DNA from: a bacterium
Lineage (GTDB): Bacteria; Planctomycetota; Planctomycetia; Pirellulales; UBA1268
Assembly (NCBI GenBank): GCA_029978085.1
Contig: JAPOJV010000012.1
Location: 1-42,564 of the forward strand
Direction: 5' to 3'
DNA: 42,564 bases
The notes under the pieces were generated by a model. That model was given only the letters and a program-made list of their open reading frames with translations, did not search any database and was not told where the DNA came from. The position numbers and the translations under genes were made by a program. Shown here piece by piece: positions 20,474-38,794 of this stretch; position 1 is the stretch's first letter, and each line of letters opens with the position of its first letter.

Positions 20474-20931
20474 GTGTCGGTCTTGCGATCGTTCCGCTTC
20501 TTGCCGCGCATCCGCTGGCCACGCTCAATGCCGTGCTCAACTCGATCGCGGCGGTGCTGCTCGTGATCGGCTGGGTGACGATCGCCCGGGGCAACTGGAA
20601 GGCCCACCGCGCGGCGATGGTGGCCGCGTTCGCCGTCTCGGCGGTCTTCCTCGTCTCGTATCTCACCTATCACGCGATGGCGGGGAGCGTGCCGTTCACG
20701 GGGCAGGGGGGCGTGCGGATCGTCTACTTCGCCATCCTGATCTCGCACGTGATCCTCGCCGCCGCCGTGCCCGTGCTCGCCCTGCGGATGTTCTTCCTCG
20801 CCTGGAAGCAGCGCTGGGAGGCCCACCGGCGGCTGGGCCGGATCACGCTGCCGATCTGGCTCTATGTGTCGGTGACGGGCGTGGTGATCTACCTCATGCT
20901 CTACCACGGGGGTAGCCCGGTCACGCCGTGA
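20470..20931 (+). CDS. DUF420 family membrane protein
   Basis: A 153-residue integral membrane protein with four or five helices, matching DUF420. Conserved histidines lie at helix ends: KAHRAAM, YLTYHAM, LISHVILAA, EAHRRLGRIT and the C-terminal YLMLYH. Members sit beside SCO and oxidase genes in many bacteria, and related proteins (CtaM/YozB group) are needed for haem-copper oxidase assembly; that role is transferred from the family. The stop codon falls inside a GTAG-headed palindrome (20912-20936), so the final residues GGSPVTP are encoded by repeat DNA. Confidence 0.85.
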   Translation: MSVGLAIVPLLAAHPLATLNAVLNSIAAVLLVIGWVTIARGNWKAHRAAMVAAFAVSAVFLVSYLTYHAMAGSVPFTGQGGVRIVYFAILISHVILAAAVPVLALRMFFLAWKQRWEAHRRLGRITLPIWLYVSVTGVVIYLMLYHGGSPVTP

Positions 20932-20990
20932 CCGGGAAGCTGTCACGGCGTGACAAGCCTACGGGGGAGTGACAAGCCTACGGGGACTAC
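20912..20990. repeat. GTAG-headed palindrome pair (REP family 2, copy 1) plus 17-bp direct repeat
   Basis: GTAG (20912-20915) precedes a 10-bp-stem palindrome, CCCGGTCACG at 20916-20925 with its complement at 20927-20936. A second palindrome (GTCACGGCGTGAC, 20942-20954) follows, ending in CTAC (20959-20962), which is GTAG on the other strand. Thus two REP-like units face each other. A 17-bp direct repeat, GTGACAAGCCTACGGGG, occurs at 20950-20966 and 20969-20985. The same palindrome recurs at 33822-33897. REPs mobilised by REP-associated tyrosine transposases (RAYT) typically show a GTAG foot; the transposase itself is not in this window. Confidence 0.75.
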
Positions 20991-29359: not shown

Positions 29360-30160
29360 ATGGCCGTCTCCTCACTGCTCACGGCGTTATCCGATCCGCT
29401 CCTCGCGGCAGCGGTGCTTGCCCGGATGTCGGCCGCCGTGCTTGCCGGCGCCCTGCCGCTGAGCGACCAGGTGCCGGTCAAGGTGCGCGGCGTGCTTGCT
29501 GTCTGCCTGACGGTGCTCGCGCTGCCGACGGCCACCCACGCGCGGGCTGCGTCCCTGGCAGCGCAGCCGCTGCCCGCCGTCGTCATCGGCGAGGCGGTGG
29601 TGGGGCTCGGCCTCGGACTGGTCGCGGCGGCGATCGTGGCCGCAGCGGCATGGGCCGGCGGGCTGCTTGGCAGCGTGTCCGGGCTCTCGTGGGCCGACGA
29701 CTTTGCCACGGCTGCGGGTGACCCCGAGCCGACGGGCGTCGCGCGGCTGGCGTGGTGGCTCGGCCTGGCGGGCTTCTTCGCCGCGGGCGGCCACCTCGCC
29801 GTGGTCGCCGGCCTGCTCGAGAGCGTCCGTGTGATCCCAGTGGGCAGCCTGTTCGCCGGCGGCGGGGCGGAGTCGCCGCTCGTCGCGGTGGTGGCCGCCG
29901 CACCGGCACTCGCCCTCTCACTCGTCACCGCGCTGGCCGTCCCTGCGGTCACAGCCGTCGTGACGTTTCATCTGGCCCTGGCGATCTGCCTGCGCACCGT
30001 GCGGTTCGATCCGGGGCAGGGCATGCTGCAGGGGCTGGCCGCGGTCGTCGTGATGCTCGCGTTCGTGGCCGGCGCCGAGGCGTGGCTGGGCGGCTTCGGT
30101 GCCGTGGCCCACGCCCAGATCGAGCGGTCGCTCGCCGGCGAATCCTCGCGCGGCCCTTGA
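29360..30160 (+). CDS. fliR: Export gate protein FliR
   Basis: 266 residues, the expected size for FliR. The ATG at 29360 gives MAVSSLLTALSDPLLAAAVL; an upstream ATG at 29306 overlaps fliQ and adds non-conserved residues. Helices fill the protein, with PLSDQVPVKVRGVLAVCLT matching the FliR region before helix 2, and LSLVTALAVPAVTAVVTFHL near the C-terminus. It completes the FliPQR pore. Sequence is more diverged and Ala-rich than typical flagellar FliR. Confidence 0.86.
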   Translation: MAVSSLLTALSDPLLAAAVLARMSAAVLAGALPLSDQVPVKVRGVLAVCLTVLALPTATHARAASLAAQPLPAVVIGEAVVGLGLGLVAAAIVAAAAWAGGLLGSVSGLSWADDFATAAGDPEPTGVARLAWWLGLAGFFAAGGHLAVVAGLLESVRVIPVGSLFAGGGAESPLVAVVAAAPALALSLVTALAVPAVTAVVTFHLALAICLRTVRFDPGQGMLQGLAAVVVMLAFVAGAEAWLGGFGAVAHAQIERSLAGESSRGP

Positions 30161-30200
30161 TGCCGAAGTCGCACCTCACAGCAAACCACTCGGAGCCGGC

Positions 30201-30932
30201 ATGTCGGACTCGGCCGATCGCACGATTCCCGCCACGCCGCGTCGCCGCGAGGCAGCGCGACGGCAGGGGGCGATGCCCGCCTCCGCGGCGCTGGCCTGGG
30301 TGGCCAGTGCCGTCGTCGTGGTGGCGCTCCTGCCGGGCTGGATGCGGACCACGCTGCCGGCCGCGGCCGAGATGGTGCGGGGCGTGATCGCCACGGCCAC
30401 GTCGGCTCGTGCCGACACGCCGGCGGTCAGCGAACTCCTGCCCATGTCGATCCTCGCGCCGAGCCTCGGGCTCGTGCTGGCGGCAGCCGCGGCGGGCCTT
30501 GCGGTGCGGGCCCTCTGCGACGGCATCAGTTGGCAGCCTGCGAGAATCGTGCCGGACCTCGCCCGGATCGATCCGCTCAGCGGCCTGCGTCGTGTCTTCT
30601 CAGGCCGCACGGTCATGGCGGTCATGGGCAACGCCGCCGCGCTGCTGCTGCTGGGCGGCGTGGCGTATACGGTCGCCGGTCCGCTCCTGGGTAGCGGCAC
30701 GCTGGGCGATCCGGCGCGGGCGGCGCTGCTCGCCTGGCGGCAGCTCGGCTGGCTCGTCGCCGCGGCTGCGGTGATCGCGGTGTGTCAGTATGCGCTCGCG
30801 CGGCTCCGGTTCGAGAAGGCGATCCGGATGACGCCGCAGGAATTCGCCGACGAGCAAAAGAGCATGCAGGCCGACCCGAAGGTTCGGCTCATGCAGCAGA
30901 AGCGGCGTGCGACGCCCACCCCGCACGCGTAG
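30201..30932 (+). CDS. flhB: FlhB lacking its autocleaving C-terminal domain
   Basis: The ATG at 30201 gives 243 residues; classical FlhB has about 350-380. The N-terminus reads TIPATPRRREAARRQGAMPAS, the conserved FlhB start. Four membrane helices follow (about 22-44, 84-110, 136-160, 178-202), then the linker KAIRMTPQEFADEQKSMQAD and PKVRLMQQKRRA. In full-length FlhB this linker continues into the NPTH-containing domain, which cleaves itself and switches export substrates. Here the frame ends seven codons later (TPTPHA, stop TAG). A REPIN-like element begins 11 bases on, and no FlhB C-terminal sequence is seen in any nearby frame. Loss by rearrangement is a possible cause. Confidence 0.85.
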   Translation: MSDSADRTIPATPRRREAARRQGAMPASAALAWVASAVVVVALLPGWMRTTLPAAAEMVRGVIATATSARADTPAVSELLPMSILAPSLGLVLAAAAAGLAVRALCDGISWQPARIVPDLARIDPLSGLRRVFSGRTVMAVMGNAAALLLLGGVAYTVAGPLLGSGTLGDPARAALLAWRQLGWLVAAAAVIAVCQYALARLRFEKAIRMTPQEFADEQKSMQADPKVRLMQQKRRATPTPHA

Positions 30933-30942
30933 CACGCTTCCG

Positions 30943-31087
30943 CCGTAGTCCACATGCTCCGCATGTGGCCCACGGTATGAACACCGCAGCCCCGAGCTAC
31001 TGCCGAGCGGGTCGGCGAACCTCTGGTCGAATAGCCGGGTCGCTCGGCCTGCTGCCTCAAACCGCACACGGAGTGTGCGGACTACGG
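30943..31087. repeat. REPIN-like element, family 1, copy A (145 bp)
   Basis: The left end is CCGTAGTCC followed by the palindrome CCACATGC-TCC-GCATGTGG (30950-30968). The right end is CCGCACAC-GGA-GTGTGCGG (31062-31080) followed by ACTACGG. Both outer ends thus carry GTAG pointing inward as an inverted pair. On the reverse strand it aligns end to end with the copy at 37648-37794: about 26 and 33 terminal bases are identical and the centre is diverged. It fills the space between the flhB and sulfotransferase gene ends. No coding frame is credible within it. Confidence 0.82.
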
Positions 31088-31103
31088 GGGCCCGATCGTT
31101 CCG

Positions 31104-32255
31104 TCAGACCGCCGGCACGGGGTAGCCGTAGCGGTCGATGAATGGACGCCAACGGGTGGCGATCTCACCCACGATTCGCGGGTCGTGGCGATAGGTGTTG
31201 GTGCGATACCGCTTCATCGACTCGCAGTGCGCCTCGAGCGCGGGCCGCATGTGGTCGAAGTCGTCGAGGCCGAGCCGGTCATAGGCCTCGGCGAGCTTGG
31301 CCACCGGGTCGGCCACGAGGTCTTCGTAGCGCATCTCGTGGAGCCGGTCGGGGCCCAGCGTCTGTCGATCGCGGTCGAATGCCGCATACATTTCGTCGAA
31401 GGCGTTGAACACGTACCGCTCGAGTGACTCGCCGCGGTCCACCTGCATGCCCTGCACGTCGTGCAGCGACCGCCAGAGGCGGAGCGTCGAGGGAAAGACG
31501 ACGAAGGGATCGCGAACCACGTGCAGGAACCGGGCCTGCGGAAACATCTCCGCCAGCACGCCCATCCGCGCCGTGTGCGGCGGGCTCTTGAGCACGGGCC
31601 GCCGCTGGTCGCGGACGGCGAGCCGCGCCAGAAACTTCTTCATCGCCCCCTTCCAGCGGGCCTGCTCGGCCGGTGGCAAGAGCGCGACATCGAGCGCCTC
31701 GGGGCGATCGGAGCTCGTCACGGGAAACGCCATCCGGCGATACGGCGACGGCGCGCCCATGTTGACGAGGGCGAATTCGTCCTCCTGCGGCCGGTCCCAG
31801 CCGGCGGCCACGTCGTCCATCGGCCGCTTGGACGGAATGATCCAGGAGAGGGCCGATGTCACGACCGACTCCGTGAGCAGGAAGTGGCCCGGCGCGAAGC
31901 ATTGGTAGGTGTTGGGGCAGCAGAACCGGTCGTCGAGCATCATCAGTTCGTGCAGGAGCGTCGTGCCCGACCGCCAGTGGCCGATGATGAACAGCGGCGG
32001 TGGCGTGGCCGGCGGATCGCGCAACAGCCGGCGAAACCGGGCCTCGGAGAGCGGCTCGGCGAGCGAGTTGAATGCGGCGGCACCGGTCACCGTCGCCATC
32101 AGGCCCCAGCGGCTCGGGGCGATCCGCCAGCGATGCTCGGCCACCAGCGGCAGCCATACGCCCAGCGGCATGCCGTGCCAGAACCGCGGGCTCCACCAGG
32201 GGTAGGCGTGGTAGCTCTTCTCGCCGGTGCCCGCAGGGGGCGGCTGCTGAAACAC
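31104..32255 (-). CDS. Sulfotransferase family protein
   Basis: 383 residues from the GTG at 32253-32255; the frame is open further to an ATG at 32444, but that would overlap the upstream thioredoxin-like gene by 140 bases. PLFIIGHWRSGTTLLHELM near residue 90 is the PAPS 5'-phosphosulfate loop, and ARFLHVVRDPFVVFPSTLRL holds the 3'-phosphate site (RDP...S). These sulfotransferases move sulfate from PAPS to hydroxyl or amine groups; the substrate here is unknown. It ends 17 bases from a REPIN-like element. No membrane helix is evident. Confidence 0.88.
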   Translation of the reverse strand: MFQQPPPAGTGEKSYHAYPWWSPRFWHGMPLGVWLPLVAEHRWRIAPSRWGLMATVTGAAAFNSLAEPLSEARFRRLLRDPPATPPPLFIIGHWRSGTTLLHELMMLDDRFCCPNTYQCFAPGHFLLTESVVTSALSWIIPSKRPMDDVAAGWDRPQEDEFALVNMGAPSPYRRMAFPVTSSDRPEALDVALLPPAEQARWKGAMKKFLARLAVRDQRRPVLKSPPHTARMGVLAEMFPQARFLHVVRDPFVVFPSTLRLWRSLHDVQGMQVDRGESLERYVFNAFDEMYAAFDRDRQTLGPDRLHEMRYEDLVADPVAKLAEAYDRLGLDDFDHMRPALEAHCESMKRYRTNTYRHDPRIVGEIATRWRPFIDRYGYPVPAV

Positions 32256-32304
32256 GTCGAAGAAATCCCTGAAAGGAGCGGACGCAGGCTCCGCAGAGTC
32301 TACC

Positions 32305-32886
32305 TCACCGCTGTTGAACGTCGTCGATGTCGCCGGCGATCCGCTCGGCACTGCCGGGGGCGTCGAGCACGTCGCGGAGCGCGGTGGCCAGTCCCCCCGC
32401 GGCGGCCGAGCCCGTGCCGCGAAACCGCTCCTGGCCCTGGGCATCGATCACGACCACCGTCGGAAACCCACTCACACCGAAGTCCTTGCAGGTGGCGGCG
32501 TCGCGGTCGGCGTCGGCCGCCACGCAGACGAATCGTCGCGCCAGCGACACCACGCCCCGATTGGTGAGCGCCCCCTGCGTGAGTTCACAGCTCCATCGGC
32601 ACCAGCTGGCCCGGAACACGATCAGCATCGGCAGCTGTTCGGTCGCGGCCCGCCGCCGTCCCGCCTCATAGCCCTCCACGTACTCGATGCCGGGCGTGGG
32701 GGCGTGATCACCCCGCGGCATGTCGCGGCCTGTCGCCTCCTGGGCGACCAACGGCCAGATCGCATCGGTGGCCGCCGGCCGCACCGGCTCATCCTGGATG
32801 TCGCAGCCGGCGGTGAGGGCGACAGCCAAGAGACCGGCGGTCAGCTGTGAACGGCCGTGCGGGGCGGAGGGAAAACGAGCCTTCAT
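32305..32886 (-). CDS. Thioredoxin-fold lipoprotein with CxxxC
   Basis: 193 residues beginning MKARFPSAPHGRSQLTAGLL; the hydrophobic stretch ends LTAGC with lipidated C28. The fold core is EQLPMLIVFRASWC, with C96 and C100 spaced as CRWSC instead of the usual CxxC. Later elements are RRFVCVAADADRD, VSGFPTVVVIDAQ (cis-Pro P142) and GLATALRDVLD. Secreted and membrane-tethered, so a thiol-redox or metal role is possible; the extra residue between the cysteines makes classical disulfide chemistry uncertain. It is divergent from the TPR lipoprotein at 33040. Confidence 0.8.
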   Translation of the reverse strand: MKARFPSAPHGRSQLTAGLLAVALTAGCDIQDEPVRPAATDAIWPLVAQEATGRDMPRGDHAPTPGIEYVEGYEAGRRRAATEQLPMLIVFRASWCRWSCELTQGALTNRGVVSLARRFVCVAADADRDAATCKDFGVSGFPTVVVIDAQGQERFRGTGSAAAGGLATALRDVLDAPGSAERIAGDIDDVQQR

Positions 32887-33816: not shown

Positions 33817-33821
33817 GTGGT

Positions 33822-33897
33822 CAAGTCACGCCGTGACTTGTTCCGGTGTGGCCAAGTCACGCCGTGACGTGTTCCGGTCACGGCGTGACCGGGCTAC
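33822..33897. repeat. Palindrome cluster (REP family 2, copy 2)
   Basis: Three palindromes built on GTCACGCCGTGAC: 33822-33840 (9-bp arms), 33856-33868, and 33874-33892 (9-bp arms, opposite loop base). The last continues into GGGCTAC (33891-33897), which read backwards begins GTAGCCCGGTCACG, the same sequence as the unit at 20912. The cluster lies between two convergent genes and could act as a bidirectional transcript end as well as a mobile repeat. Confidence 0.75.
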
Positions 33898-33909
33898 CTT
33901 TCGGCGTCG

Positions 33910-37627: not shown

Positions 37628-37794
37628 CCGTAGTCCGCACACTCCGCCCGTAGTCCGCACACTCCGTGTGCGGTTGGAGCTGTGAAGGCCGAGCGGCCGG
37701 GCTATTCGTCCGGACGTTCGCTGGGCCTGCAAGGGAATAGTGCGGGCCTTCGGTGTTTCGGCCGTGGGCCACATGCGGAGCATGTGGACTACGG
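37628..37794. repeat. REPIN-like element, family 1, copy B (147 bp) with partial duplicate end
   Basis: The full element spans 37648-37794: CCGTAGTCC plus palindrome CCGCACAC-TCC-GTGTGCGG at the left, and CCACATGC-GGA-GCATGTGG (37769-37787) plus ACTACGG at the right. It is in opposite orientation to the copy at 30943-31087. A partial copy of the left end (CCGTAGTCCGCACACTCCG) precedes it at 37628-37646, suggesting tandem end duplication. It occupies most of the gene-free stretch 37498-37855; nothing else was recognised there. Confidence 0.82.
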
Positions 37795-37855: not shown

Positions 37856-38794
37856 ATGGACGACTCAACGGCCTTACTCGTTGGCTGCGGCAGTGCCCTC
37901 GTCGTGGCGGTGGCCGCGGCCGTTGGAGCCTGGCTCGTGCGGGGATCGACAGCCGTGCCGGCTGCCTGGTGGGCGGTGGCCGCGGCGGGATCGCTCGCTG
38001 CGGAGATGGCCGCACGGGCCACAGGCGGCCTCGCCGACCCGGCCACCGGTGCCGCCGCGCGGCTCGTCAGCCTCGCCCTCGCGGTCTGCCCCACGATGTC
38101 GCTGCTTGGAGCCAAGCGACCGCAGCATGGCGTCTGGCAGTTCATCGTCGCCAGCCTCGGCGTCGTGCTCGCGCTGCCCGCCCTTTCGGCCACGCTCGTG
38201 CGGCCCGGCACGCCTCCTGACGTCCACATGCTGGAGCGCGGCTTTCTCTTGATTCTGCTCATCGTCGGCTGGATGAACTTCATCGGCACGCGGCACGGGG
38301 CCGCTGCCACGCTCGTGACGGTCGGGCTGGCTGTGCTCGCGCGGGGGGTTCTGCCGTTCGTGCCGACGGGCCTGGCGGAGTCGTCGGCGCCGCAGTTCGA
38401 GGCGATCGCCTGTGGCAGCCTCGCCCTCGGGGCAGCCATCGCCGCCGCCCAGTCCGCATGGGCCGCGTGGCAGTCGCGTCGCGAACGAGCGGCCCCGTTG
38501 ATCGCCGCGCTGGTCGGGCCCTCCTACGCCGCGATCCGCGAAACGTTCGGTGCCGCCTGGACGCTGCGGATCGCCGAGCGGTTCAACACCGTGGCCGCCG
38601 AGCGGGGCTGGCCCTGCCGGCTGCACTTTCGTGGGCTCGAGTTCGGGGGCGATCCCGACGACACGGCCTGGCAGCGTGACGCCCTGCGGGCCCTCCGGGC
38701 GCTGTTCCGTCGGTTCGTCACCGCCGACTGGCTCGCTCGGCATGGCTGGCCCGATCAGCCAGATGGCGTAGCCCCCTTGAAGGAAGGGCGTTAG
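37856..38794 (+). CDS. Membrane protein of unknown function
   Basis: 312 residues. The first about 205 residues hold six or seven hydrophobic helices (starting LLVGCGSALVVAVAAAVGAW; later FIVASLGVVLALPALSATLV). The C-terminal 100 residues are soluble and end in RFVTADWLARHGW, with ERFNTVAAERGWPCRLHFRG and FGGDPDDTAWQRDALRALRA before it. No catalytic motif is apparent. The nearest neighbours give no functional clue. The family was not recognised. Confidence 0.7.
   Translation: MDDSTALLVGCGSALVVAVAAAVGAWLVRGSTAVPAAWWAVAAAGSLAAEMAARATGGLADPATGAAARLVSLALAVCPTMSLLGAKRPQHGVWQFIVASLGVVLALPALSATLVRPGTPPDVHMLERGFLLILLIVGWMNFIGTRHGAAATLVTVGLAVLARGVLPFVPTGLAESSAPQFEAIACGSLALGAAIAAAQSAWAAWQSRRERAAPLIAALVGPSYAAIRETFGAAWTLRIAERFNTVAAERGWPCRLHFRGLEFGGDPDDTAWQRDALRALRALFRRFVTADWLARHGWPDQPDGVAPLKEGR

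Follow-up and report, generated by a model that had tools for sequence, protein, structure and literature searches.

We conclude that the element at positions 30945-31085 of the window, that is, of the whole 42,564-nucleotide stretch of planctomycete DNA analyzed here, is a REPIN, a non-autonomous piece of miniature mobile DNA that is most likely mobilized by a RAYT transposase, and we place the probability of this reading at roughly 85%. REPINs are already known as a kind of bacterial element, and the family in this host is an ordinary, well-supported REPIN family that is large, species-specific and non-coding; its sequence and its host are new, and the RAYT step is the presumed part of the account.

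Results

An earlier note on this DNA had described two copies in opposite orientation, and both were found: copy 1 at 30945-31085 on the forward strand, a type 1 element of 141 bp measured from GTAG to CTAC, and copy 2 at 37650-37792 on the reverse strand, a type 1 element of 143 bp that lies upstream of an open reading frame (ORF; 37856-38794). The limits given in that note (30943-31087 and 37648-37794) enclose the same elements and differ by the added flanking CC/GG. In each end, GTAG and a single T precede a hairpin whose 8-bp stem is perfectly paired and whose 3-nt loop is TCC, and the two ends face inward across a spacer of about 93 nt, the end sequences of the window copies being CCACATGC-TCC-GCATGTGG and CCGCACAC-GGA-GTGTGCGG. 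The left REP of copy 1 (30945-30968, forward strand) is GTAG plus T plus the hairpin CCACATGC-TCC-GCATGTGG, and its inverted right REP (31062-31085, reverse strand) reads GTAGTCCGCACACTCCGTGTGCGG on the minus strand; the REPs of copy 2 lie at 37650-37673 (forward strand; GTAGTCCGCACACTCCGTGTGCGG) and at 37769-37792 (reverse strand; GTAGTCCACATGCTCCGCATGTGG when read on the minus strand). A repeat search paired the arms of the window copies at 82% over 71 nt and at 97% over 33 nt. Copy 2 is also abutted by a partial extra end, GTAGTCCGCACACTCCGCCC (37630-37649, forward strand), and 20-nt partial ends of this kind adjoin several other copies of the family.

The host assembly comprises 3.31 Mb in 263 contigs and is 97.7% complete. 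The genome-wide count of end palindromes that the earlier note had proposed gave 86 exact matches to the end pattern GTAGTCCRCAYRCTCCGY, against none for the reversed-pattern control, so the repeat is not a product of chance, and BLAST with copy 1 returned at least 62 matches (from 40 scored of 118 candidate places in the genome). Within a distance of 200 bp, 48 of the 86 ends combine into 25 converging pairs, which mostly span 138-143 bp, compared with 1 diverging and 3 same-strand pairs. The copies are scattered over many unrelated loci in two orientations, and 28 full copies, collected stretch by stretch and thus representing a genome total of at least 28, were aligned. The results as a whole support the reading of the element as REPIN-like in its architecture, abundant, dispersed and specific to its lineage.

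As the earlier note had claimed from the two window copies, the ends, built as GTAG plus palindrome in inverted pairs, are nearly identical: among the 28 copies the two 24-nt ends average 94% and 97% pairwise identity, a figure that falls to 76% and 64% in the inner flanks and to 59% in the middle. Its description of the centers as diverged holds at these values of 59-76%, but they are still recognizably homologous, and the spacer dinucleotide CT (alignment columns 54-55, within GCTAYT) is invariant in 28/28 copies, followed by A in 27/28 and then by T or C. The GTAG of the left end, one of the two tags (GTAG or GTGG) that mark a REP unit beside its short palindromic hairpin, is likewise invariant in all 28. 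In the end hairpins both partners have changed in 6 of 16 pairs and pairing holds in 99.8% of cells, a result that none of 500 shuffles matched; coordinated variants include CCACATGC/GCATGTGG, CCGCATGC/GCATGCGG and CCGCACAC/GTGTGCGG, among others. The consensus fold (RNAalifold) contains two local end hairpins, with the GTAG tag paired to the spacer CTAY. Similar arms, GCTATT and GAATAG, lie across the spacer with zero covariation in the aligned copies, so that base pairing between them finds no support in this alignment.

A MITE of a double-strand DDE-type insertion sequence, with the 24-nt ends as its terminal inverted repeats, would likewise be small and intergenic, with inverted ends and a variable center. 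On the evidence of the repeats and of searches for Y1/RAYT transposases, we consider this very unlikely, as each end folds into an internal hairpin of its own that shows compensatory changes and bears a GTAG tag, and a Y1/RAYT gene in the planctomycete metagenome-assembled genome (MAG) PL25a_bin.67 has REPs of this type on its flanks. Moreover, the flanks are near-constant, CC upstream and GG downstream (the second base out is C upstream in 25/28 copies and G downstream in 27/28), and no target duplication pattern was seen in the flanks of the aligned copies.

Copy 1 sits between two convergent genes, one of the FlhB family (30099-30932; PF01312, E = 5e-31) and one of the sulfotransferase family (31104-32444; PF13469, E = 1e-32). 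This convergent pair is present in most congeners, and the copy 1 element was not found at the orthologous site in the congeners read; in five of their loci (L273, L264, L276, L268 and L275) hardly any sequence separates the two genes and the element is missing. Other repeats occupy the site elsewhere, namely, the structured module of about 140 bp treated below in congener G008 (L267) and further repeats in G010 (L262) and G015 (L263), and since the gap at 30932-31104 of the window thus carries different repeat families across congeners, it behaves as a hot spot for repeat insertion. Across 98 genomes, host included, exact ends number 86 in the host, 5 in congener G010, 1 in a genome of the same order and 0 in the other 95, and among 21 congeners copies of the family occur, in small number, only in G010. 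The GTAGTCC REPIN family is therefore almost confined to the host species. Absence from the orthologous site and this narrow distribution fit a recently expanded mobile family and speak against a conserved RNA gene.

A conserved structured RNA or a bidirectional terminator, functional between genes and amplified incidentally, is the least probable account that we weighed, and we regard it as highly improbable. A rough gene call on the 28 copies placed 10 between convergent ORFs, 8 between codirectional and 0 between divergent ones, with 8 overlapping ORFs whose starts look over-extended and 2 at contig ends; copy 1 of the window was counted among the 8 overlapping copies, yet truly lies between convergent genes, so that 10/28 copies plus copy 1 have a placement in keeping with this account. 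REP transcripts elsewhere have also been proposed as RNA elements in a survey of such repeats (PMC3733652). In the congeners read, the element is missing at the corresponding site, which is hard to reconcile with such a function, as are its many unrelated loci in two orientations and a center whose structure is not conserved. Rfam gave no match in the window at the gathering threshold and none to the REPIN element in permissive mode, on which ground a conserved RNA gene was rejected. The earlier note had named the outcomes that would count against its own reading, either just these two copies in a genome that lacks a RAYT or an element that proves to be a conserved RNA gene; what we found was 86 ends and no Rfam match. 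Secondary use of REPIN copies as RNA elements or terminators is possible.

The earlier note had suggested looking for a RAYT gene with this repeat on its flanks; none was found in the 263-contig host assembly. With Pfam Y1_Tnp, 1 gene was identified in the host genome, and with the NCBIfam model for REP transposases 5, on contigs C99, C103, C222, C172 and C77, all below the curated cut-off of the latter model; the GTAGTCC repeat was not seen beside these 5 inspected Y1/RAYT-like genes, some of which have short flanks near contig ends, and a HUH-motif scan of 69 repeat-bearing loci revealed no RAYT adjoining the repeats. C99 and C103 are the two RAYT-like host genes with resolved flanks, and each carries different repeats. 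The C99 gene (L031:1135-1945) is bounded by perfect inverted repeats of 29-30 nt (AGGTGCCAGCCACC.. / GAAAAAGGTGCCAGCCACCAAATCTGGGCAAT) and was rejected as the cognate RAYT because its flanks carry AGGTGCCAGCCACC.. as its own inverted repeat. The gene with its repeats resembles the TIRYTs of PMC3733652, which are TIR-flanked transposases. The C103 RAYT gene (L254:1-1033) is embedded in a REPIN-like array of tandem units of about 115 bp with hairpins CCGCAGGTTGTTCAACCTGCGG and GTGCAGGTTGGACAACCTGCAC; it was rejected as the cognate RAYT owing to these flanking repeats. The tag in the C103 array is GGAG in place of GTAG.

RAYTs associated with the same or sister REPs were found elsewhere. In a scan of 84,980 genomes, the end was present in several Planctomycetota and Verrucomicrobia MAGs among the matches listed. 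One of these, PL25a_bin.67 (JANQLS01; G099), a planctomycete, has 42 exact ends, and on its contig C97 (locus L225) a RAYT lies between GTAGTCCGCAGGCTCCGCCTGCGG REPs on both sides, with inverted pairs upstream; the same REP type makes REPINs of 150-240 bp there, with spacers unrelated to those of the host. In congener G010 (contig C105, L226/L253) inverted pairs of GTAGGCCCGTCACTCCGTGACGGGC REPINs surround a RAYT gene, and these repeats are sister REPs that follow the plan GTAG..CC..TCC..GG with a TCC-loop hairpin. The two RAYTs are 38% identical to each other and match NF047646 below its curated cut-off (E = 1e-17 for PL25a_bin.67 and 5e-17 for G010). As no same-repeat RAYT was found in the host genome, the RAYT link is indirect and runs via PL25a_bin.67 and G010, so that these loci tie RAYTs to the REP design and not directly to the host copies.

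Many ends that lack an inverted partner start a second type of element, in which about 75 nt of REPIN left arm is followed by a module of about 140 bp (GGGGCTGCCCATGCCCC...GGGGCATGGGCAGCCCC), the second GTAG REP being absent. These type 2 composites of about 235-250 bp have at least 26 full-length matches in the host genome (from 35 scored of 213 candidates), for example at L055:968-1215 and at L025, L061, L067, L068 and other loci, and a few are also found in congener G010. On its own, the module is found in every one of the 22 genomes in the genus (L055:1050-1195 on contig C21 of the host, G000; L286-L315 across the genus). Its fold is branched: both partners have changed in 12 pairs, and doubly changed cells number 78, against a shuffled mean of 24. 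Rfam in permissive mode gave no match to the module or the type 2 locus, only a tRNA next to one of the module copies and sub-gathering chance hits. The shared junction suggests joint movement of REP arm and module. Tentatively, a REP end recognized by a RAYT may have acquired another structured repeat, unrelated to it, and dispersed together with that repeat, which would amount to one-ended mobilization by a single-strand transposase; we see this as a possibility with the odds against it, and type 2 elements together with the genus-wide module could serve as a test of whether a RAYT end carries foreign DNA. Another GTAG repeat family, GTAGCCCGGTCACGCCGTGACCGGG...TGTCACGGCGTGACAAGCCTAC, occurs in the window at 20911-20962 and 33820-33898, has 258 candidate places in the genome and is similar to the repeats around the G010 RAYT.

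Discussion

Our results lead us to infer that this REPIN family has been moved by a RAYT whose gene may now be lost, may be unassembled or may be one of the other RAYTs of the host acting in trans. The last of these, a variant of the main explanation in which another RAYT-like gene (C103, C99, C77, C172 or C222) mobilizes the family, appears unlikely, if less so than the alternatives already discussed. All five Y1/RAYT-like genes are seen in the assembly, and C103 is the host gene nearest to the G010 RAYT, with 38% identity; on the other side, C103 and C99 are each surrounded by repeats of another kind, and RAYT-REP recognition varies from system to system and is described as involving specific determinants (PMC8266576). 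A missing RAYT is compatible with membership among the REPINs, as some E. coli genomes carry REPINs without a RAYT (PMC8049555) and REPtrons, according to PMC3733652, can be absent. Linkage to a RAYT is also no part of the published definition of REPINs, which names inverted REP doublets, conserved ends and a variable spacer (Bertels and Rainey, PMC3116915).

For a REPIN moved by a RAYT, we propose that each REP would fold when the region becomes single-stranded, that the RAYT, a HUH/Y1 single-strand transposase, would bind the hairpin and its GTAG tag and cleave at a CT dinucleotide picked by the GTAG guide, and that the unit would then enter intergenic DNA without target duplication. TnpAREP enzymes cut at CT, selected through complementarity to GTAG (PMC8266576), and by analogy the invariant CT of the spacer may be the cut site.

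These elements represent a REPIN population that is new and species-specific, in an uncultured planctomycete outside the model systems of Pseudomonas, E. coli and Stenotrophomonas, and its presence in one species and one congener offers a natural system in which to time REPIN expansion and transposase loss. Like the REPINs of Pseudomonas fluorescens SBW25 (GI, GII and GIII; PMC3116915), they are hairpin-forming, apparently intergenic, high-copy inverted REP doublets with conserved ends, a variable spacer and derived singlets, whereas they differ in REP sequence, in their longer spacer (SBW25 GI 16-mers start 71 bp apart) and in that the host assembly yielded no RAYT with the same repeat around it. 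With the GTAG REPs of the PVC superphylum they share GTAG at one hairpin end and placement between convergent or codirectional genes, where, according to that 2013 BMC Genomics survey (PMC3733652), the GTAG REPs of Planctomycetes and Verrucomicrobia chiefly lie; the string GTAGTCC is absent from its main text. The REPs of the PL25a_bin.67 REPtron (GTAGTCCGCAGGCTCCGCCTGCGG) have the same tag, CC, 8-bp stem and TCC loop and form REPINs with inverted ends, in contrast to the host in that their spacer sequences are unrelated and a RAYT lies between the repeats. The G010 RAYT locus, with inverted pairs around the gene, likewise combines GTAG, CC and a TCC-loop hairpin, but its stem is CGTCAC/GTGACG, its REPINs are shorter, at about 60 bp, and the tag is followed by GCC, not TCC. 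The REP design of GTAG..CC, 8-bp stem and TCC loop is now linked to RAYTs in these two planctomycete genomes.
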